DNA of 64,000 nucleotides, from NCBI GenBank assembly GCA_009773355.1, contig WRPG01000003.1, positions 1-64,000 of the forward strand, given 5' to 3'. Under the pieces are notes generated by a model. It ran no database searches and was not told the origin of the DNA. It was given only the letters and a program-made list of their open reading frames with translations. Source of the DNA: Limisphaerales bacterium. Lineage in GTDB: Bacteria; Verrucomicrobiota; Verrucomicrobiia; Limisphaerales; SXTU01. A program made the position numbers and the translations under genes. Position 1 is the first letter of the stretch. Each line of letters begins with the position of its first letter. Below are positions 15,836-55,537 of the stretch, piece by piece.

Positions 15836-15882
15836 GTTTTCAAGGGCGGGAACTTGCGGACTCGCCGGCGTGATCGGGGAGT

Positions 15883-15917
15883 TTCAACCTTGAACTTTGA
15901 ACCCTGAACTTTGAACT
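15883..15917. repeat. Heptamer tandem repeat, TTGAACY type
   Basis: Five consecutive 7-bp units (TTCAACC, TTGAACT, TTGAACC, CTGAACT, TTGAACT) sit immediately upstream of the Gfo/Idh oxidoreductase start codon at 15925, covering the place where a ribosome binding site would be expected. The same unit recurs at 38529-38549 and 52798-52829. Confidence 0.85.
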
Positions 15918-23914: not shown

Positions 23915-25077
23915 GCGGGCGGACTGCCCTGGTCGTCGGCGCGGGCGTCTTCGGCCTCACTGCCGCGCTGGAACTGCGCGCACGCGGCTGGCGCGTGACG
24001 GTGATTGACCCCGGTCCGGTGCCCACGCCCACGGCGGCTTCCACCGACATCAGCAAGGTGGTGCGGATGGACTACGGGGCGGATGAATTGTGGACCGGGC
24101 TGGGGCGCGAGTCCTTGAGGGGTTGGGCTGAATGGAATCGCGAGTCTCGCGAACCGCTCTTCCATGACGACGGTTTCCTCGTGCTGTCCCGTGCGCCAAT
24201 GCAGCCGGGCGGCTTTGAGTTCGAGAGTTTTGAGATGCTCAGGTCCAAAGGTGTGAAGCTCGAACGCCTCGACTCCGCTGAGGTGGCGCGACGTTTTCCC
24301 AATTGGGCGGCGGAGAAATATCCCGATGGCTACTTCAATCCCAGCGGCGGCTGGGCCGAAAGCGGGAAGGTCGTCGCGTGGTTGGCGCGGAAGGCCCGGC
24401 GCGAGGGCGTGCAAGTGTTCGAGAGCTGCGCCTTCGCGCGGCTGCTGGAGAGCGGCTCGCACGTCATCGGCGTGCAGGCGAAGGACGGTTGCGAGTTCCG
24501 CGCTGACCTCACGCTGCTAGCGACCGGTGCGTGGACGCCGACGCTGCTGCCGGAGTTGAGCGACGTGATGTGGGCCACGGGCCAGCCGGTGCTGCACTTC
24601 CGCGTCGCGAATCCCGCCGAGTGGCAGGCCCCGCGCTTTCCCGTGTGGGCAGCCGACATCGGGCGCACGGGCTGGTATGGCTTCCCGGCGCTCGCGGACG
24701 GCACGCTCAAGGTCGCCAACCACGGCCCCGGCCGTCGTGTGCATCCGGACGACCCTCGCGAAGTCTCACCCGACGACGAGCCACGCTTCCGCGCCTTTCT
24801 GCGCGATACGTTCCCCGCGCTGGCCGATGCGCCGCTCATCGGCACGCGGCTCTGCCTCTACTGCGACACCTTCGACGGCAACTTCTGGATCGACCACCAC
24901 CCGCAGCGCCCCGGTCTCGTCGTCGCGGCGGGCGACAGCGGGCACGCCTTCAAGTTCGCGCCCGTGCTTGGCGAACTCATCGCGGACGCGGTCGAGCGCA
25001 AGCAGGACAGCGCGATGAAACGCTTCGCTTGGCGCGGGCGGAAAGCCATCGGCGGCGAAGGCGCGCGGGCGCGTTGA
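23911..25077 (+). CDS. FAD-dependent oxidoreductase (DAO/sarcosine oxidase-like)
   Basis: The 388-residue protein has an N-terminal dinucleotide fold (ALVVGAGVFGLTAALELRARG, with GxGxxG) and a substrate domain of the D-amino-acid oxidase / monomeric sarcosine oxidase type. A typical C-terminal FAD segment reads PGLVVAAGDSGHAFKFAPVLGE, in the place where sarcosine-oxidase relatives have a similar GFxxHGFKxxP motif. It oxidises a secondary or primary amine or amino acid, with the substrate unknown. Its ATG overlaps the stop of the preceding coiled-coil gene by four bases, so it is coupled to that membrane pair. Confidence 0.9.
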   Translation: MSGRTALVVGAGVFGLTAALELRARGWRVTVIDPGPVPTPTAASTDISKVVRMDYGADELWTGLGRESLRGWAEWNRESREPLFHDDGFLVLSRAPMQPGGFEFESFEMLRSKGVKLERLDSAEVARRFPNWAAEKYPDGYFNPSGGWAESGKVVAWLARKARREGVQVFESCAFARLLESGSHVIGVQAKDGCEFRADLTLLATGAWTPTLLPELSDVMWATGQPVLHFRVANPAEWQAPRFPVWAADIGRTGWYGFPALADGTLKVANHGPGRRVHPDDPREVSPDDEPRFRAFLRDTFPALADAPLIGTRLCLYCDTFDGNFWIDHHPQRPGLVVAAGDSGHAFKFAPVLGELIADAVERKQDSAMKRFAWRGRKAIGGEGARAR

Positions 25078-25080
25078 ACC

Positions 25081-25179
25081 CGTGCCGGCGACTTCCAGTC
25101 GCCGCGTTGCGGGTTGATAGGTTGAAACCGTTTGGGGTTGTCCGCACCTCGCAGACGGCGACTGGAAGTCGCCGGCACG
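25081..25179. repeat. Inverted-repeat element, family B (copy 1)
   Basis: Perfect 24-bp terminal arms (25081-25104 and 25156-25179) enclose a 51-base core. Each arm contains its own hairpin around GGCGACTTCCAGTCGCC. Total length is 99 bp. It starts 4 bases after the stop codon of the FAD oxidoreductase and could form a long stem at the end of that mRNA. Confidence 0.9.
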
Positions 25180-25225
25180 GCATCATGGTTGAAGCCACCT
25201 CCCCCTTCCGCGTCCAAGCCAGCCG

Positions 25226-30542: not shown

Positions 30543-30613
30543 GTAGCCGCCGACGTGAGGAGGCGGATTCCGCGATTGCCTTGGGCGTCCGTTCCGCCTC
30601 CTCACGTCGGCGG

Positions 30614-30617
<4 letters not shown>
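30543..30617. repeat. Inverted-repeat element, family A (copy 1)
   Basis: Perfect 25-bp arms (30543-30567 and 30593-30617) contain GCCGACGTGAGGAGGC and flank a 25-base core. It lies between convergent HAD and addA genes. The end of the right arm reads CTAC on the plus strand, so the TAG stop codon of addA (30614-30616) is part of the element. Confidence 0.92.
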
Positions 30618-34633
<4,016 letters not shown>

Positions 34634-34640
34634 GGGTGCA

Positions 34641-34811
34641 AAGCTCCAAATTCCAAGCTCCAAGTTCCAAAGCAGCTCCAACCATCAAGCTCCAAAATCC
34701 AAACCGGCTTCAGTGCCGACGGAGCGGGTGCTGCGTGGCCGGAGCAAACGGCGCGTTTGGAGCTTGGCGTTTGGAGCCTCTTTGGAGCTTGGAACTTGGA
34801 GCTTGGGATTT
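34641..34811. repeat. Heptamer-built inverted repeat between addB and addA
   Basis: The left part (34641-34703) is made of 7-bp units such as AAGCTCC, AAATTCC, AAGCTCC, AAGTTCC. The right part (about 34755-34811) holds the inverted units (TTGGAGC, TTGGAAC, TTGGAGC). Together they could fold into a long hairpin in the 208-base gap of the addB-addA transcript. Nothing else is visible in this gap. Confidence 0.85.
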
Positions 34812-34841: not shown

Positions 34842-37800
34842 TCACGCTTCCGCCTCCTGCTCCGCTGGCTGTTTCAATGCACGAAACGGCTGCGTCCACG
34901 GGTCGAAGCGGCAGATGGCGCGGTAATCGCAGCGGTCGCAGGCCTTGTCGCTGGCGCTGACGCGGACGGGGGAGACGGCAACCTCGCCGGCGAAGATGGC
35001 CTCGCCGAGGCGGCGGAGATTGGCTTCGACTTGCGTGAGCAGGGCGGCGAACTCGGCGGAGGGCAGCGCATCGGAGCCGCGCGCGATGAGGCCGCCGTCC
35101 TTGTTCAGCCGCAACTTGAACTGCCCGCTGGCCGCGCCGCCGGGGCGCGCGTCCAGCAGTGCGCGGTGGGCAAAATCAAAGCGGCCGGCGTGCTGGTAGG
35201 TGGCGCGGCGGGCGGCCTCGTCCTCGGAGAGAATCTCGGCGCGCTCGCCGGTGGAGCCGGTTGCGCCGTGCAGCGGGATGTAAAAGACGCCGGCGGGGTG
35301 GAGCGCGGCAGCAGCCGACGTGAGGAGGCTCTGGCTCGATTCCGCATTCCGCGTTCCGCGTTCCGCATTAGCTGGAGCCTCCTCACGTCGGCTGCTACTG
35401 AGGACATTCAGATACGCAAGCAGTTGAAGCTGGAGGCCGTTCTCGACTTTGAGCGCGTCGAGCTTCTTCGGGCTGCTCTTGTAGTCCACGACGACGGCGA
35501 GGGTTTCGCCTGACTTCTCGTCGCGGCAGAGGTCCACGCGGTCAATGCGGCCACGCAGCGAGAGGACTTTGCCGTCCGCCAGCGCGAGCCGCCACGCGGG
35601 CAAGGGGCTGCCGGGCAGGCCGAAGCCGAGTTCCACCGCGACGGGGTCGAAGGCGTAGCCGGGCATCCAGCCGACCAGCGCGGCGAGGAGCCGTTGCGCG
35701 CTGGCGATGAGCGAGCGCGCGGCGAAGCGGCGGGAGTCGTCCGCCGCGAAGAGCGCGAACTCGGGGCTGGCGAGCAGGTCTTCGCCGACGCGGGCGGCGA
35801 GTGCGGCGGCGTCCGCAAGCGAGAGGTCGCGCCAGCGTCGGCCGGAGGCGGCAACGCGCAAGTGAAACTCGTCGAGCAGGCGGTGGATGAAGCTGCCGCG
35901 CTCGCGGTGGTCCACCTCGAACTCCTTGCGTTCCTCCGCGCCCAGCCCGGCGGCGACGAAGAACTTGAACGGGCACTCGGCGAATTGCTCGAGCTTGCTT
36001 ACGGAGGTGCGGAGTTCGGTGTCGTAGAGCTGGGAGACGGCGCCGGGGGAAAGGCGTGTGGCCGCGCGGGCGGCGGTGATTTCGTGCCAGCGGGTGATGA
36101 CGGGGGCGAGGGCGGGGAGGGATGCTAGGGATTGGAGCGCCGATGGGGCCGAGGGAGAAGAGGCGGCGGCGAGTTCGCGGAGGATTGGTTCCAGCAATTC
36201 CTCCGTGTGCTCGGCTTCGCGCCAGTCGTGCGTGGGCGGGACTTTTTCCAGTTCGAGGTCGGGGAAGAGTTGCTGGACGTGCGCGAGGATGGGCGAGGGG
36301 TGGAGCGGTTTGCCGTCGGTGTCGGCAGCGGAGCAGGTGAGCACCAGGCGCGAGCGGCTGCGGGTGCAGGCGATGTAGGCAAAGTAACGTTCGTGCGCAA
36401 TCTGCGCGCGCGGGTCGAGACCGAGGCGGGTGTCATGCGCGGCGAGGAGGTCGCGTTCGGTCTCGGTGAGCAGGACGGGGGGCGTGGGCGGAGCGGGGAA
36501 GATCCCTTCGTTCAGGCCGAGGATGAGCGCGAGTTGCAACTCGGGATTGCGCGAGCGGTCAATGGTGCCGATGAGCACCTGGTCGAGCGCGGGCGGGATG
36601 ACGCCGACGGAGAGGGAGCTGAGGCCGGCTTCAAGGATGGGGATCCATTCGCGGAGCGGCAGGGCGGGGGCACTGGCGGGGAAGGCGCGCTCCAAGTTGT
36701 CGAGCCACTCGTGCATTTGGCGCAGGACGGTGGCGTGGAGCGGAGGGGCGAGCGCGGGGACAGGAGTGTCGCCTTCACGGGCAAGGGCGTCGTCCCAGGC
36801 TTGCAGGCGGGACTCGATGGCGAGCGTGTCCCACATCGAGCGGAGGGCGGCGGCGAGTTGCGCGCCGGAAATGGCTTCTGACAAACGAATGGGGACAAGC
36901 GAATGAGGAGGAACTGATTCGTTTGTCCCCATTCGTTCGTCAGTTTCGTTTTGGTTGAGTTGTTCGGCCAGCTTCGCGATGGGCGCGGTGAGGCGAGCGC
37001 GGAGGTGCTCGGCGCGCGGGAGGTTGAACTTGGGTTCGGGGATGGCGAGCGGTTCGAGCCATTGCGCGCCGCGCCAGCCGTGGGCGAGGGCGAGGTTTTC
37101 CAGCCAGTCAATGTCCTCGTCGCGGTCGTGGACAAGACCGGACTTGAGCGCGCCGAAGAGGTCGTCGGGCTGCCAGCCGTAGGCAAGCGTGCGGAGGGCA
37201 AGGCGGGTCAGTTCCGCGAGCGGGTGGTGCGCGACCGGCTCGCGGCGGTCGAGGAAGAAGGGAATGCCGTAGCGCGTGAAGACGCGGCGGAGCGCGGTGT
37301 GGTGGTGGTCGAGCGTGCGGAGGATGACGGCGCAGTCGCGGAAGCGCCCACCGGCGCGGACGTGGCGGAGGATTTCGCGGGCAGCGAGGGTGGCCTCGGC
37401 TTCGGGGTTGGCGCACTGGCAGCGACGAAGAGGCGAAGGCGGATGCTGGATGCTGGATGCTGGATGGAGTGTGCTCGTAGCGCGACATTCCAATGTCGCG
37501 GTTTCCATGGTTGCTGTCTCGTCCGAGCAGACCGATTCCGATTCGGAAGCGACGTCTCGACATTGGAATGTCGAGCTACCAGAGGCGGCGGGCGCAGTCC
37601 AGTTGGCTTCGAGTTGAGCGAGGGTTGGGCTGTCGCGGCAGCGGCTGTGGGCGGGGTCGCGCGGGAGTTCTTCGACACTCGCTTCGCAGCCTGGCAGGGC
37701 GGCGATGCGTTGGCGGCAATCCAAGTAAGTGCGGCGGACGGTGGACCAGAGGGAGAGCCAGCTTTGCGAGTCGGCGGCCTGCGGGTCGAGGCAGAAGGCG

Positions 37801-38528
37801 AGCGAGGCGGTGCGGCAGAAGGGGAGGACGGCGCAGAGCAGGTCCAGCTCCTGCGGCGTCATCTCGGCGAAGCCGTCGAGCCAGAGGCCGGCGATGGGGA
37901 ATGGGGAATGACGAATGACGAATGACGAATCGCGGACCAGGCCGGTGGCGAGGTCGAGCAACTGGTCGCCGTCCTGAGTTTGGCTTTGCTCCAGCCATTC
38001 ATGGTAGGCGCGGAGCAGATGGTGGAGGTCGTGGAGCTTGTCGCGGAGCGGGGCGCTTTCGGTGCAACGCTCGGCGAGGCGGGCGAGGCGCGCGGGCGTG
38101 AGCTGGTGGCGCTGAAACTCGCGGAGGAGCTGGCTGAGTTGACGCGCAAAACCGGGCAGGCGCGCGGTGGCGCGGAAGACTCGGAGCGCGGGCTGCTCGC
38201 GCGCGAGCAAGGCGCGCAAGACCATCACGCGCCCCTCGTCATCGAGCAGGTCGGGCACGGTGGCGAAGGTTTCGAGCAGCCAGTTTGCGAGCCGGTCGAA
38301 GGAGACGATTTGCAGCCGCGAGTAGCCGGCGAGGTCCGGGCTTTCCAGCAGTTGGCGCTCAAGCTGAAACGTGGCCTGCTTGGGCGCGAGGAGCAGCAGC
38401 GGTGGACCGTCGGGCGCGCGCTTCAGTTCGGCGCGAATTTCCTCCAGGCAGCGCCACGTCTTGCCGCTGCCGGCGGGGCCGAGGAGGAAGTGGGCGCGCA
38501 CGCCGCGATGGTCGGGCGGGGAGGACAA
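34842..38528 (-). CDS. addB: AddB-like Fe-S nuclease/helicase subunit with in-frame repeat insertions
   Basis: The 1228-residue partner of AddA. Walker A is GPAGSGKT (17-24). The C-terminal RecB-type nuclease has VVDYKSS (about 1020), and the iron-sulphur staple is formed by a Cys in FAECPFKFF (about 850) and the cluster ACDRCDYRAIC (about 1199-1208), as in AddB of Bacillus. ARSEL-like central region LGLNEGIFPAPP is typical. Repeats are translated near residues 201-212, 317-363, 529-551 and 1044-1074, for example as SSSRREEAPANAERGTRNAE. No ATG is available at the start: the frame begins with TTG at 38528, inside a TTGAACY-type heptamer run; GTG at 38501 is an alternative. Confidence 0.9.
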   Translation of the reverse strand: MSSPPDHRGVRAHFLLGPAGSGKTWRCLEEIRAELKRAPDGPPLLLLAPKQATFQLERQLLESPDLAGYSRLQIVSFDRLANWLLETFATVPDLLDDEGRVMVLRALLAREQPALRVFRATARLPGFARQLSQLLREFQRHQLTPARLARLAERCTESAPLRDKLHDLHHLLRAYHEWLEQSQTQDGDQLLDLATGLVRDSSFVIRHSPFPIAGLWLDGFAEMTPQELDLLCAVLPFCRTASLAFCLDPQAADSQSWLSLWSTVRRTYLDCRQRIAALPGCEASVEELPRDPAHSRCRDSPTLAQLEANWTAPAASGSSTFQCRDVASESESVCSDETATMETATLECRATSTLHPASSIQHPPSPLRRCQCANPEAEATLAAREILRHVRAGGRFRDCAVILRTLDHHHTALRRVFTRYGIPFFLDRREPVAHHPLAELTRLALRTLAYGWQPDDLFGALKSGLVHDRDEDIDWLENLALAHGWRGAQWLEPLAIPEPKFNLPRAEHLRARLTAPIAKLAEQLNQNETDERMGTNESVPPHSLVPIRLSEAISGAQLAAALRSMWDTLAIESRLQAWDDALAREGDTPVPALAPPLHATVLRQMHEWLDNLERAFPASAPALPLREWIPILEAGLSSLSVGVIPPALDQVLIGTIDRSRNPELQLALILGLNEGIFPAPPTPPVLLTETERDLLAAHDTRLGLDPRAQIAHERYFAYIACTRSRSRLVLTCSAADTDGKPLHPSPILAHVQQLFPDLELEKVPPTHDWREAEHTEELLEPILRELAAASSPSAPSALQSLASLPALAPVITRWHEITAARAATRLSPGAVSQLYDTELRTSVSKLEQFAECPFKFFVAAGLGAEERKEFEVDHRERGSFIHRLLDEFHLRVAASGRRWRDLSLADAAALAARVGEDLLASPEFALFAADDSRRFAARSLIASAQRLLAALVGWMPGYAFDPVAVELGFGLPGSPLPAWRLALADGKVLSLRGRIDRVDLCRDEKSGETLAVVVDYKSSPKKLDALKVENGLQLQLLAYLNVLSSSRREEAPANAERGTRNAESSQSLLTSAAAALHPAGVFYIPLHGATGSTGERAEILSEDEAARRATYQHAGRFDFAHRALLDARPGGAASGQFKLRLNKDGGLIARGSDALPSAEFAALLTQVEANLRRLGEAIFAGEVAVSPVRVSASDKACDRCDYRAICRFDPWTQPFRALKQPAEQEAEA
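35308..35398. repeat. Family A element with GTTCCGC core, inside addB
   Basis: Arms 35308-35332 and 35374-35398 are near-perfect inverted copies; the core holds ATTCCGC and GTTCCGC units (35339-35369). Read in frame through the addB nuclease domain. Confidence 0.9.
36878..36943. repeat. Inverted repeat GACAAACGAATGGG inside addB
   Basis: A 27-bp arm (36878-36904) is inverted at 36917-36943 with two mismatches. Each arm consists of two 14-bp units (GACAAACGAATGGG and GACAAGCGAATGAG), i.e. twice seven. It is translated in frame between conserved AddB segments. Confidence 0.88.
37441..37467. repeat. Heptamer tandem repeat GGATGCT in addB
   Basis: Three and a half GGATGCT units abut a family C element. 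On the minus strand they encode SIQHPAS-type period-7 peptide. Confidence 0.85.
37477..37579. repeat. Family C element inside addB
   Basis: Arms 37477-37500 and 37556-37579 are inverted copies of a sequence with inner palindrome CTCGACATTCCAATGTCGAG (one arm has CGCGACATT..). Core of about 55 bases. Read in frame. Confidence 0.9.
37894..37928. repeat. Heptamer tandem repeat ATGACGA in addB
   Basis: Five 7-bp units: ATGGGGA twice and ATGACGA three times. The minus-strand product has the 7-residue period SSFVIRHS. No inverted mate was found. Confidence 0.85.
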
Positions 38529-38549
38529 AGTTCAAGGTTCAAAGTTCGC
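38525..38549. repeat. Heptamer repeat at the addB start
   Basis: AGTTCAA, GGTTCAA and AGTTCGC (the complement of the TTGAACY type) cover the beginning of addB, including or touching its putative TTG start codon. The remaining gap to the MFS gene (38550-38581) shows nothing. Confidence 0.75.
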
Positions 38550-40221: not shown

Positions 40222-41766
40222 GTGCGGCCTTTGCCACTGGTTCAACTCGACAACGTGAGCGTCTCCCTCGCCGGGAAACGCATCCTGCATGGCCTCAACT
40301 GGCGCTGGCGCGCGGGCGAGAGCTGGGCGGTGCTCGGGGCGAACGGCTCGGGCAAGAGCACCTTCCTCCGCCTCGTGGCTGGCGAGCTGCATCCCGACCC
40401 GGTGGACGGCGGGCGGCGCACCTACGGCTTGAACGGCGAATTGTCCACCAGCGCAGTCGGCGTGCGGGAGCGCATGGCCTTCGTCTCGCCGGAGCAACAG
40501 GAGCGTTACCTAAACCTCGAGTGGGTCCGCACCGGCCGCGACGTGCTGCTCACGGGCTTTCACCAGACCGACTATCTCTACCGGCGGCTCACGGCGGAGC
40601 AAAAGGCGGCGGCGGAGAAGCTGGCGGAGGAACTGCGGCTCGGTCCGTTGCTGCGGCGCGACGTGCAGACCCTTTCGCAAGGCGAGTTCCGGCGCGTGCT
40701 CATCGCCCGCGCGCTGCTGGGCCGGCCGCGTGTGCTGCTGCTGGACGAGTTCACGGACGGCCTCGACGCCGCCATGCGCGCGACCCTGCTCGCCGCCGTC
40801 CAGCGCGCCGCCGAGTCCGGGACCAGCGTGCTGCTGGCGACGCACCGCGAGGACGAGCTGCTGCCCGCGCTGCGCCGGCGGCTGGTGCTGGAAGCGGGGC
40901 GGGTCGTAGTGCGGGAAATCGCCGCGAAAGGGCGCAGAGAACACCAAGGGGAGAAGCGAAAAAACGTCCAACGCCCAACGACCAGCGCTCAACGTTCAAA
41001 TGACGGAACCGCGACGACGCGCGCCTTGGAAGTTGGAAGTTGGAAGTTGAACGTTGAACGTTCTCCTTCTGCTTCGAGTTCTCCTTTCCTCTTCCGCCTG
41101 CGCAACGTCAGCGTCTATCTGGACCGCCAGCCGGTGCTGCGGAACGTGAATTGGGAGATGCGCCCCGGCGAGCACTGGGCCATCACGGGGCCGAACGGCT
41201 GCGGCAAAAGCACCTTCCTCAAGCTGCTCCTGGGCGAGCGGCACCCGGCGGTGGGCGGAGCCATCCACCGCTTCGGCGAGACGCGGCGGCACACGCTCTG
41301 GGAAATCCGGGCGCGCGTGGGCTACGTGGGGCCGGACCTCCAGACCGCCTACCGGGACGACCTGACCGCGCGGGAGGTCGTCGCCTCCGGCTGCTTCGCC
41401 AGCATCGGCCTGCTGGACGCAGTGACGCGCGCGCAATGGCGGCGGGTGGACGAGTTGCTGGAGCAGTTCTCCCTCGGCGGCCTCGCGGGGGAGAATTTTC
41501 TCCGCCTTTCCTACGGGCAGCGCCGCCGCGTGCTGCTGGCGCGGGCCGTGGTTCACCGCCCGCAGGTGCTGTTGCTGGATGAATTGTTCGACGGCCTGGA
41601 CAGCGCCGCCTGCCGCCTGCTGGACCAGCAGTTGGGACAGCTTTCCGCCGCCGGTGCGTGCGTGATCTTCACCTCCCATCAACGGCGGGCGCTCGCCATG
41701 GAAGCCATCACCGCCGCGACGCTTAGTCTGGCGGATGGAAAACGGGCTGAAGGAACCACCGGCTAA
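40222..41766 (+). CDS. ABC transporter ATPase with two nucleotide-binding domains (ModF/PhrA-like)
   Basis: The 514-residue protein starts from GTG. The first domain has Walker A LGANGSGKST (near residue 40) and signature TLSQGEFRRVLIARALLG; the second has Walker A TGPNGCGKST (near 320) and signature LSYGQRRRVLLARAVVH with Walker B VLLLDELFDGLD. There are no membrane helices, and no permease gene is next to it. This matches the ModF/PhrA group of twin ATPases. A heptamer-built element is translated as the linker (residues about 248-281, QRPTTSAQRSNDG..SWKLNVERS). Its TAA overlaps the convergent lptD stop. Confidence 0.88.
   Translation: MRPLPLVQLDNVSVSLAGKRILHGLNWRWRAGESWAVLGANGSGKSTFLRLVAGELHPDPVDGGRRTYGLNGELSTSAVGVRERMAFVSPEQQERYLNLEWVRTGRDVLLTGFHQTDYLYRRLTAEQKAAAEKLAEELRLGPLLRRDVQTLSQGEFRRVLIARALLGRPRVLLLDEFTDGLDAAMRATLLAAVQRAAESGTSVLLATHREDELLPALRRRLVLEAGRVVVREIAAKGRREHQGEKRKNVQRPTTSAQRSNDGTATTRALEVGSWKLNVERSPSASSSPFLFRLRNVSVYLDRQPVLRNVNWEMRPGEHWAITGPNGCGKSTFLKLLLGERHPAVGGAIHRFGETRRHTLWEIRARVGYVGPDLQTAYRDDLTAREVVASGCFASIGLLDAVTRAQWRRVDELLEQFSLGGLAGENFLRLSYGQRRRVLLARAVVHRPQVLLLDELFDGLDSAACRLLDQQLGQLSAAGACVIFTSHQRRALAMEAITAATLSLADGKRAEGTTG
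40963..41063. repeat. Heptamer-built element inside the ABC ATPase linker
   Basis: Left units AACGTCC, AACGCCC, AACGACC, AGCGCTC, AACGTTC (40963-40997) face right units TTGGAAG three times and TTGAACG twice (41026-41060), so the two sides are roughly inverted. It sits exactly between the two ATPase domains and keeps the frame. Confidence 0.88.
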
Positions 41767-48477: not shown

Positions 48478-48492
48478 GGGTGTGCCTGAACC

Positions 48493-48590
48493 CGTGCCGG
48501 CGACTTGCAGTCGCCGTCCGTGGGATGCGAATGAGCGGGGTGGTCCTGCGCTGTCCACCCGCAACGCGGCGACTGCAAGTCGCCGGCACG
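48493..48590. repeat. Family B element abutting the rsmH stop
   Basis: Perfect 24-bp arms (48493-48516, 48567-48590; hairpin GGCGACTTGCAGTCGCC), length 98 bp. Base 48590 is directly followed by the rsmH stop codon (48591-48593, minus strand), and the other end is 15 bases from the convergent gene. Confidence 0.92.
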
Positions 48591-49811
48591 TCAGCCCGCC
48601 CGTCGCGCCCAGCGGAGTTTCGCGGGTGACGAGCGCGGGTTGTCGCGGCGCTCCTCCGCCGTGGGCCGGATGACTTCGGGGGAAATCTCCGCATAAGTGC
48701 CCTCGCGCTGGCCCGCCTCGAAGGCCTTCTTCACCCGCCGGTCCTCGCCAGAGTGGAACGTGAGCATCGCCACGCGTCCGCCGGGGTTCAGGCACGCGGG
48801 CAGGTGGCGCAGCAACGTGTCGAGCGCGGAGAACTCGTCGTTCACTGCGATGCGCAAGGCTTGGAACACGCGCCGCACTGTGAGGTCCGCCTCGCCCTTG
48901 TGCATCGTCGGCAGCGCGGCGCGGATGGCGGTGACAAGTTCGCGCGTCGTGGTGAATGTGTGGCGAGCCAAGGCGACGGCGAGCTCGGTCGCACGCGGCT
49001 CGTCGGCGTTGGCGTGAAGCAAGTCCGCCAGCGCGGCGGGTAAAGTCTTTGCGAGCAACGCGGAAGCGGACTGACCTCGTTGCGGATTCATCCGCATATC
49101 CAGCGGCCCGTCGCCCTTCGTGGAGAAACCGCGGGTCGGATCATCAATCTGCATCGAGGACACCCCGAGGTCCGCGAGGATGCAGTCCGCCCCTGCCGCG
49201 TAGGAGACGACGTGAGGAGTCTCTAACTGGATTGGGTCTGGCGTTTGGGGTCTGGGATCTGAGGACAAGTGAGACTCCTCACGTCGTCTCCTACTGGCGA
49301 ATTGCGCCAGCGCCTGTGGCAGTCCGGCGAAGTTGCTGCGCACGGCGGTGAACGTCTCTGTGCCAAAGCCCGCCTCGCGCAAGCGCGCCTCCGTCTTCGG
49401 CAGTTCCACCGGGTCCGCATCCAAGCCGAGCAAGTGGCCGCCGGGCTGGAGCCGCGCGAGCAACTCGCGCGCGTGGCCGCCGTAGCCGAGCGTGCAATCC
49501 ACCGCCAGCTCACCGGGTTGCGGCGCGAGCACCAAGAGGATTTCCGCGACCATGATGGGCCGGTGCGTGCCGGCGGGCGTCTTCCCGGAGGCGAGCACCT
49601 TCGCCACTGTCTCGGCGTAGCGCTGCGGGTCGAGCTCCTTGTATTTCTCCTCGAACCGGCGCGGGTTCCTGCCCGAGTAACGTGGCCGGCGGCGATGCGG
49701 CGGCCGAGGCGTTGGATTGTCAGGTGAGGGCAAGGCGAAGTCGGTCAAGATGCGGGGGAGTGTGTTCTTGACCCGGCAAATGCGCAACGAAAGCGGCACG
49801 CATGAGGCCAC
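48591..49811 (-). CDS. rsmH: 16S rRNA m4C1402 methyltransferase RsmH with inserted repeat
   Basis: RsmH methylates N4 of C1402 in 16S rRNA. Motifs are HRPIMVAEILLVLAPQ, the AdoMet loop VDCTLGYGGHARELL, ADLGVSSMQIDDPTRGFS and the closing GGRVAMLTFHSGEDRRVKK plus PRSSPAKLRWARR. An element with family A arms is translated in frame at about residues 173-204, between the Rossmann loop and ADLGVSS. There is a basic Pro/Arg-rich N-terminal extension of about 80 residues, and the start is unclear: GTG at 49811 is the outermost choice, with other non-ATG starts inside. No mra/mur cluster genes are visible nearby. Confidence 0.9.
   Translation of the reverse strand: MASCVPLSLRICRVKNTLPRILTDFALPSPDNPTPRPPHRRRPRYSGRNPRRFEEKYKELDPQRYAETVAKVLASGKTPAGTHRPIMVAEILLVLAPQPGELAVDCTLGYGGHARELLARLQPGGHLLGLDADPVELPKTEARLREAGFGTETFTAVRSNFAGLPQALAQFASRRRREESHLSSDPRPQTPDPIQLETPHVVSYAAGADCILADLGVSSMQIDDPTRGFSTKGDGPLDMRMNPQRGQSASALLAKTLPAALADLLHANADEPRATELAVALARHTFTTTRELVTAIRAALPTMHKGEADLTVRRVFQALRIAVNDEFSALDTLLRHLPACLNPGGRVAMLTFHSGEDRRVKKAFEAGQREGTYAEISPEVIRPTAEERRDNPRSSPAKLRWARRAG
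49200..49294. repeat. Family A element with GGGTCTG heptamer core, inside rsmH
   Basis: Arms 49200-49224 and 49270-49294 are inverted copies (core GACGTGAGGAGTCTC). The interior runs in 7-bp units GGGTCTG, GCGTTTG, GGGTCTG, GGATCTG. It is translated through rsmH. Confidence 0.9.
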
Positions 49812-49862
49812 GAGGGCCGACGGCCGGAAAGGAGGGCGTGATTGACCACGCGCCCCGAGGTT

Positions 49863-52365: not shown

Positions 52366-53112
52366 TCAGCCGTGCGGCTTCTCCGCCACGTTGATGCTCA
52401 TCACGCCGCCGAGGAAGTTCACGACGCGCGCATCCGCCGCGCCGAGCGCGCGCAGCTTTTCGTCCACGCCGCGCTGCGCGGGGTAGTGCTGGAGCGATTC
52501 GAGAATGTAGGCGTAGGCCGCCGCGTTTTTGCAGAAGACCCGGCCGAACACCGGCACGGCGAAGCGCAGGTAGGCGAAGTAAGCCCCGCGCCACGCCGCG
52601 TGGTCCGGCTTGCCGAAGTCCAGCACCAGCAGGCGCCCGCCCGGCTTGAGCACGCGCCACATCTCGCGTAGGCCGTCATCCACGCTCGCAAGATTTCGCA
52701 AGCCGTAGCTGATGGTCACGAGGTCAAAGTGCGCGTCCGGAAATGGCGTGTGCAACGCATCACCTTGTAGGAATTGCGGATTGTCCGCCGCGCCGCTTTG
52801 AACTTTGAACCTTGAACCTTGAACCTTCCTCGCCTTCGCGACTTCAAGCATCGGCGCGCTGAAATCCATCCCCGTCGTCCTCGCGCCCGCCGCCGCGAGG
52901 GCGAACGCCACGTCCCCGGTGCCGCAGCAGAGGTCCAGCGCGGTGTCGCCGGGCTTCACCGCCGCGAGCCGGAGCAGCCGGCGCTTCCACCAGCGGTGCA
53001 GGCCGAAGCTTTGCAGGTCGTTGATGAGGTCGTAGCGCGGCGCGATGGCGGCGAAGAGGTCGTTGACCCGCTCCGCCCGCCGTTCGCCCGCCACGTAAAA
53101 CTGGTTGCCCAT
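52366..53112 (-). CDS. ubiE: Menaquinone/ubiquinone C-methyltransferase MenG/UbiE, with in-frame repeat
   Basis: The 248-residue enzyme methylates demethylmenaquinone (or the ubiquinone precursor) using AdoMet. The family markers are RYDLINDLQSFGLHRWWKRR, motif I ALDLCCGTGDVAFAL, DALHTPFPDAHFDLVTISYG and LRNLASVDDGLREMWRVLKP. A TTGAACC heptamer run is translated in place of a surface loop (about residues 95-105, KVQGSRFKVQS) between the AdoMet site and GDALH. Probably menG, as nothing indicates ubiquinone synthesis. The polyprenyl synthase at 9479 could supply its substrate. Confidence 0.93.
   Translation of the reverse strand: MGNQFYVAGERRAERVNDLFAAIAPRYDLINDLQSFGLHRWWKRRLLRLAAVKPGDTALDLCCGTGDVAFALAAAGARTTGMDFSAPMLEVAKARKVQGSRFKVQSGAADNPQFLQGDALHTPFPDAHFDLVTISYGLRNLASVDDGLREMWRVLKPGGRLLVLDFGKPDHAAWRGAYFAYLRFAVPVFGRVFCKNAAAYAYILESLQHYPAQRGVDEKLRALGAADARVVNFLGGVMSINVAEKPHG
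52798..52829. repeat. Heptamer tandem repeat TTGAACC inside ubiE
   Basis: Four 7-bp units (TTGAACT, then TTGAACC three times) plus TTCC are translated in frame as a loop of the methyltransferase. The same unit occurs before the Gfo/Idh gene and at the addB start. Confidence 0.9.
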
Positions 53113-55386: not shown

Positions 55387-55439
55387 GACCGCGCGGCGGA
55401 GTTCGCTGGCCGGCCGGGCGGGAAGTGAAGCCGTTGCCC

Positions 55440-55537
55440 CGTGCCGGCGATTTGCAATCGCCGTCCTGTGCTCCCGCAGCTTCAGGCCGCCTCGAACTCC
55501 TGTAGCCCCCGGACGGCGGTTGCAAACCGCCGGCACG
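55440..55537. repeat. Family B inverted-repeat element (copy 6)
   Basis: Arms 55440-55463 (hairpin GGCGATTTGCAATCGCC) and 55514-55537 (GGCGGTTGCAAACCGCC) are inverted copies with compensating differences. Length 98 bp. It lies between the convergent esterase and lipoprotein genes and leaves 53 and 10 bases to them. Confidence 0.92.

Follow-up and report, generated by a model that had tools for sequence, protein, structure and literature searches.

Palindromic repeats that lie in frame within genes have been described in several bacterial lineages. Di Nocera et al. (2013; PMC3733652) reported GTAG REPs inside open reading frames (ORFs), above all in the verrucomicrobium Opitutus terrae and including uvrA genes that were hit twice, and the same paper recalls the Rickettsia palindromic elements (RPEs), palindromic repeats that occur in frame in many genes. 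In Coxiella burnetii, proteins sometimes gain in-frame residues from a group of MITEs, the QMITEs (PMC5896051). REPINs were defined by Bertels and Rainey (2011; PMC3116915). The REPs of P. fluorescens SBW25 lie almost exclusively outside genes, which overlap 14 of 1,067 16-mers (PMC3116915).

Here we analyze a REPIN that is read through by a gene for an RsmH-type methyltransferase in a Limisphaerales bacterium. It lies in the first 64,000 nucleotides of contig WRPG01000003.1, referred to below as the window. Like the REPINs associated with RAYTs (PMC3116915), it is an inverted REP pair with a variable spacer, able to form a hairpin and belonging to a dispersed family with characteristic lengths, but in contrast to the almost entirely extragenic elements of P. 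fluorescens, which have been studied best, a large fraction of its family is coding. The closest parallel is O. terrae, of the same phylum, where GTAG palindromes and their dimers lie within ORFs and encode 20 to 30 residues, and where uvrA genes carry double insertions, as two adjacent uvrA genes are hit in our sample. The parallel is one of organization, the REP sequences not having been compared, and it has its limits: here 41% of sampled copies lie in frame within genes, one insertion is orthologous across three species, and the organism appears to be a subdivision-3 relative, judging from its nearest named relatives (L128 to L130, Verrucomicrobia subdivision 3). The RPEs share the in-frame behavior alone (sequences were not compared) and belong to another lineage with reduced intracellular genomes, in contrast to the 6.2-Mb free-standing genome studied here. 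The QMITEs likewise add in-frame residues at times, but they are MITEs rather than REP doublets and come from yet another lineage. In-frame REPs are thus already known from O. terrae and, as RPEs, from Rickettsia, and the interest of the present case is the density of such insertions, their shared inheritance, and their recurrence at one loop.

We consider it about 90% probable that this REPIN inserted ancestrally (in the lineage of at least three species) in a surface loop of the methyltransferase and has been retained in frame and translated as a neutral spacer.

RESULTS

Anatomy of the element

The compared genomes, which include metagenome assemblies, are labeled G001 to G033, and fetched loci carry the prefix L; the source genome (G000) is a draft assembly of 162 contigs. 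The element comprises 95 bp, with two 24-bp arms (GTAGGAGACGACGTGAGGAGTCTC and its exact reverse complement) on either side of a 47-bp loop (Table 1). The preliminary description had placed a 95-bp repeat, translated in frame, at 49200 to 49294 inside an RsmH-family gene; the coordinates proved exact, and the minus-strand frame crosses the element without a stop. Each arm joins a GTAG tag to the imperfect palindrome GAGAC gacgtgagga GTCTC. A search for the arm in shuffled windows returned zero copies, not even a single arm, and folding of the single-stranded DNA gave a 24-bp hairpin with z scores of -7.3 and -8.4 for the two strands, equaled by none of 200 shuffles. With a GTAG beside an imperfect palindrome and many dispersed copies, the arms have the makeup of GTAG-class REPs, and their inverted arrangement in one hairpin of characteristic length (95 bp, with a 24-bp stem) is that of a REPIN. 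By its anatomy, the element is a GTAG-class REPIN.

The loop holds four tandem heptamers (GGGTCTG GCGTTTG GGGTCTG GGATCTG). Only two of the four units are exact copies of the GGGTCTG named in the preliminary description, and the window as a whole has no excess of this heptamer (5 copies versus 9.2 expected). Without enrichment, and with other heptamers in the loops of sister elements, GGGTCTG was dropped as a defining motif. Heptamer arrays of several sequences also stand alone in the window (15876 to 15916, 41033 to 41059, and 52798 to 52824), and they fill REPIN loops in the larger sample described below, where the heptamers differ among copies. Another palindromic repeat family (CGTGCCGGCGACTTGCAGTCGCCG), some of whose members form inverted pairs, occupies window positions 25075 to 25185, 33602 to 33701, 48487 to 48593, and 55434 to 55537. 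No target-site duplication was evident at the flanks of the element, which are C-rich before and G-rich after it; this may reflect a target preference.

Table 1. Features of the 64,000-nucleotide window, numbered from its first letter
Feature	Position	Strand	Remark
Same-superfamily REPIN in frame in AddA-like helicase-nuclease ORF (30617-34684, minus)	30852..30945		
REPIN in frame in AddA-like ORF (30617-34684, minus)	31420..31491		
REPIN in frame in AddA-like ORF (30617-34684, minus)	33126..33219		
REPIN in frame in AddB ORF (34845-38531, minus), inside PDDEXK domain	35308..35398		
rsmH2, long RsmH-type methyltransferase paralogue reading through the REPIN	48591..49748	-	Start codon inferred
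REP arm 1	49200..49223	+	GTAG + imperfect palindrome; 212 arms in the genome at <=3 mismatches, reversed control 0
REPIN loop, 47 bp	49224..49270		
Four tandem heptamers in loop	49234..49261	+	Copy number the same in G003 and G005
REP arm 2	49271..49294	-	Perfect reverse complement of arm 1

A second RsmH-type methyltransferase gene as host

The minus-strand open frame runs from a GTG at 49811 to 48591 (stop to stop, 48594 to 49862; 423 amino acids) and meets no stop within the REPIN; alignment with relatives suggests that the start is likely the TTG at 49748. The product scores 218 bits against Pfam Methyltransf_5 (PF01795) and 189.2 bits against NCBIfam TIGR00006, above the curated cutoff of 154.3, and its predicted fold is that of RsmH. 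In these respects, with both cutoffs exceeded and the predicted fold kept, it resembles RsmH/MraW (TIGR00006, PF01795; 1m6y, 3tka). It differs in its extended N terminus, a long region bearing a HRRRPRYSGKNPRRFEEKYKE / ASGKTPAGTH motif, in having FHSGEDRRVK where canonical RsmH has FHSLEDRVVK, and in lying outside the dcw cluster: the neighborhood includes a metF-like ORF and is not an mraZ-rsmH-ftsL-ftsI cluster. The preliminary description of the host as the widely conserved enzyme RsmH thus holds at the level of the family, but the gene is a second paralogue, which we call rsmH2, and not the rsmH of the dcw cluster.

Canonical RsmH, of 311 amino acids, is encoded by a separate gene adjoining mraZ, ftsL, and ftsI in G003, G010, and G001 (dcw genes were named by sequence recognition, and mraZ of G003 was confirmed by PF02381), and G003, G005, and G010 have both the canonical gene and the long paralogue. 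Pfam, protein, and dcw DNA searches of the source assembly found no canonical rsmH, mraZ, or matching ftsI, which is probably an assembly gap rather than a true loss (completeness, 95%). A second intact rsmH, which the preliminary description had named as evidence against its reading, is therefore likely here, as the canonical copies of G001, G003, and G010 suggest, but cannot be demonstrated in an assembly that lacks canonical rsmH as well as mraZ and ftsI. No account of RsmH paralogues in Verrucomicrobia turned up in a literature search. Long RsmH-type relatives are widespread (L127 to L206; record names include Planctomycetota, Bacteroidetes, Elusimicrobia, and Lachnospiraceae, among others) and seem to form a second, little-described RsmH-like family.

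Inheritance of the insertion and recurrent hits on one loop

The insert lies between NFAGLPQALA and ADCILADLGVSS; its predicted residues include SRRREESHLSSDPRPQTPDPIQLETPHVVSY. The corresponding loop has 17 residues in most relatives, which carry no insert, versus 49 in the source genome, which bears out the earlier figure of about 32 extra residues; since relatives without the insert exist, the segment is indeed foreign. No exact empty site was recovered among the compared relatives. Because 95 bp is not a multiple of three, the insertion must also have altered the flanks by 1 to 2 nucleotides, and because exact excision of the 95 bp leaves a frameshift, the REPIN must be read through.

In two congeners, G003 and G005, this site is occupied by the same REPIN, which is in frame there too and has an equal number of heptamers but diverged arms. 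The insertion therefore predates the split of these species. That the source genome is a draft of 162 contigs might be taken to point to an assembly or binning artifact, but three different assemblies hold diverged versions in the same place; removal of the insert by splicing or translational bypassing was likewise rejected, given the frameshift that exact removal would cause. We regard an artifact or such removal as scarcely credible. The G005 contig (L127; C125 of that assembly) matches RFSE01000022.1, from a metagenome-assembled genome labeled "Proteobacteria bacterium" although it belongs to the same verrucomicrobial genus; the label is probably wrong.

The arms of the three copies differ in type. 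Those of the source genome are perfect and match the main family of that genome, whereas both arms in G005 and the right arm in G003 resemble a second arm type (GTAGCAGCC..GGCTC). This difference suggests that arms were rewritten later, possibly by conversion between copies or by template switching at the hairpin.

The same loop has received other sequences in other genomes. In G033, from another family, it holds a different GTAG palindrome pair (GTAGCGGCGGTCTATGACCGCCGC...) that is dispersed in the G033 genome, and in G010 it holds a third palindrome family, likewise dispersed; in G004 and G002, heptamer arrays (GGAATTC and GGAATGC) add 7 residues, that is, 21 nucleotides or three heptamers. 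No fewer than four kinds of insertion thus occupy this loop across lineages, which marks it as a recurrent and tolerated insertion site.

Substitutions in the insert and in the rest of the gene

In three species pairs, nonsynonymous and synonymous changes number 10:2, 17:6, and 13:7 in the insert versus 48:98, 68:128, and 60:133 in the rest of rsmH2 (Fisher P values of 0.0009, 0.0005, and 0.005; since sequences recur among the pairs, the three tests are not independent). The insert peptide evolves without amino acid constraint while the remainder of the enzyme is constrained.

These numbers bear on whether rsmH2 is a dying pseudogene that tolerates an insertion while canonical RsmH of the dcw cluster does the work. 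Relatives do have a canonical RsmH, and the long paralogue was not found in one member of the genus (G007, 94% complete). However, outside the insert, dN is 0.05 to 0.13 against a dS of 0.5 to 1.2 among the three insert-bearing species, the catalytic motifs are all intact, and the frame is open, so that decay of the gene is highly improbable.

They bear equally on domestication, in which the REPIN peptide would have taken on a function in the enzyme, for instance by contacting RNA or protein with its basic RRRREE helix. Persistence in frame in three species with a constant number of heptamers would fit this idea, as would the residues of the 5' arm that lengthen a predicted helix, but the proportion of nonsynonymous to synonymous changes in the insert is close to neutral, in contrast to the remainder of the gene, and congeners have either no insert or unrelated ones. 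We therefore deem domestication very unlikely.

Finally, the hairpin might act at the level of mRNA or DNA, through translation pausing, transcript stability, or supercoiling, with an incidental effect on coding. The perfect 24-bp stem is in line with such a role, and synonymous divergence, which is lower in the insert (0.11 to 0.38) than in the gene (0.50 to 1.21), fits DNA-level homogenization or structural constraint. Yet G005 has a decayed stem in a gene that is still conserved, and REPINs occupy unrelated genes at varied positions. This role appears unlikely, and a translated insertion without function of its own remains our preferred reading.

Predicted structure

An initial model built on 14 sequences scored poorly (pLDDT, 54) and gave way to an AlphaFold model from a deeper alignment (pLDDT, 90.8; pTM, 0.87), in which residues 110 to 130 of the insert have low confidence. 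Alignment of this model to RsmH structures, a check proposed in the preliminary description, gave Z scores of 31.9 to TM0872 (1m6y) and 30.1 to E. coli RsmH (3tka). The model predicts an intact RsmH fold with the insert as a helix extension and a floppy loop: the residues of the 5' arm lengthen the preceding helix, the remainder is of low confidence, and strand beta-4 (135 to 141) follows. Beta-4 receives the insert at its N-terminal end and has the DLGVSS motif at its C-terminal end, so that by topology the insert would lie at the end of the strand opposite the catalytic motif. The model thus does not support the earlier placement of the insert near the active site.

REPINs in frame in other genes

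Searches of the source genome found 212 arms at up to 3 mismatches (reversed control, 0), and the REP family is present in all 11 genomes of the genus, with 2 to 212 arms each. A census covered 755 kb of the source genome chosen around listed family-A arms, a sample rather than the whole genome, with genes called by a self-trained codon-usage model and Pfam. It holds 70 REPIN pairs, mostly of about 70 or 91 to 95 bp and usually with paired arms of the same type. Twenty-nine of these (41%) are in frame within genes, with a same-frame coding signal on both sides and no stop, and seven others have coding sequence on both sides yet are off-frame or stopped. Retention in frame (29 versus 7) is far above the 12.4% expected without selection (P = 1.7e-20), a null that combines the 37% of element phases that are stop-free with the one in three insertions that keep frame. 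Random windows are in-frame coding in 56% of cases versus 41% for REPINs, so that genes show no more than a mild depletion of the elements. Of the three phases, just two are used in reading the 5' arm (16 and 13 cases); the third, which contains TAG, never occurs. With 29 of 70 sampled REPINs in frame within genes, the rsmH2 element is no singular oddity.

By Pfam, the products of the host genes include ArgJ, AroA, two UvrA proteins, AddA, AddB, 8-oxoguanine glycosylase (OGG), a cyclopropane-synthase-like methyltransferase, DUF1365, and several DUF1553 proteins; in about 12 of them, a single Pfam domain spans the insert. In the window, a further REPIN (30543 to 30617) overlaps the AddA-like ORF at its end and seems to provide the stop codon of that ORF. 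Adjacent uvrA genes at L066 (5132 to 8617 and 8732 to 11701) carry two and one in-frame REPINs, respectively. Among DUF1553 (PSD1) paralogues, L071, L100, and L116 appear to share one REPIN site, which follows TSA(A/T)Y(R/Q)Q(T/S)S, and L121 and L123 another, directly before the SPQNPL motif.

Candidate transposases

Two RAYT-like genes were found in the source genome, one scoring 89.8 bits against NF047646 (cutoff, 80) and the other 56.6 bits. Both are flanked by other repeat families, the nearest family A/B REPIN lying about 0.6 kb from one of them. One gene (L076, 4620 to 5600; contig C27) has GTAGCTCGACATTCCAATGTCGAG REPINs on either side, a family whose 14-mers reach up to 26 copies in the 755-kb sample (both strands counted), and the other is surrounded by the GGAGCGCCGGTGTCC family. 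Among the loci fetched from the genus, no family A/B REPs directly flank a Y1 transposase. Since the RAYT-like genes are flanked by other families, mobilization of the rsmH2 REPIN family by a RAYT is inferred by analogy only.

DISCUSSION

The history of this locus was probably as follows. Two inverted REPs form the hairpin of a nonautonomous mobile element, for whose movement a RAYT (Y1/HUH) transposase presumably acts in trans. Before three or more species of the genus diverged, such a REPIN would have entered a surface loop of the second RsmH-type methyltransferase, between the helix after NFAGLPQAL and beta-4, at the strand end away from the catalytic motif, where a change in length is tolerated. 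The insertion would have been retained because the gene stayed in frame, stop-free, and foldable. The ribosome would then translate the hairpin into some 32 extra residues, partly helical and partly disordered, that serve as a neutral spacer, and other repeats reached the same loop independently in other lineages. The insert is presumably translated in the cell and the enzyme that bears it presumably retains its activity.

Tentatively, and with rather less than even confidence, we propose a broader role, in which REPINs rank among the chief sources of novel protein sequence in this genus: about two-fifths of the copies would be translated in conserved enzymes, certain surface loops would be reinvaded repeatedly by unrelated palindromes and heptamer arrays, and intragenic arms might be rewritten to the current family sequence. 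If this is true, the evolution of mobile DNA drives protein evolution in this verrucomicrobial genus. For annotation, such segments will resemble lineage-specific insertions or mispredicted genes. Since REPINs are common inside conserved enzymes, translated mobile DNA can serve as a natural insertion-scanning experiment, which would reveal the loops that can take up some 30 foreign residues and the later fate of these residues.
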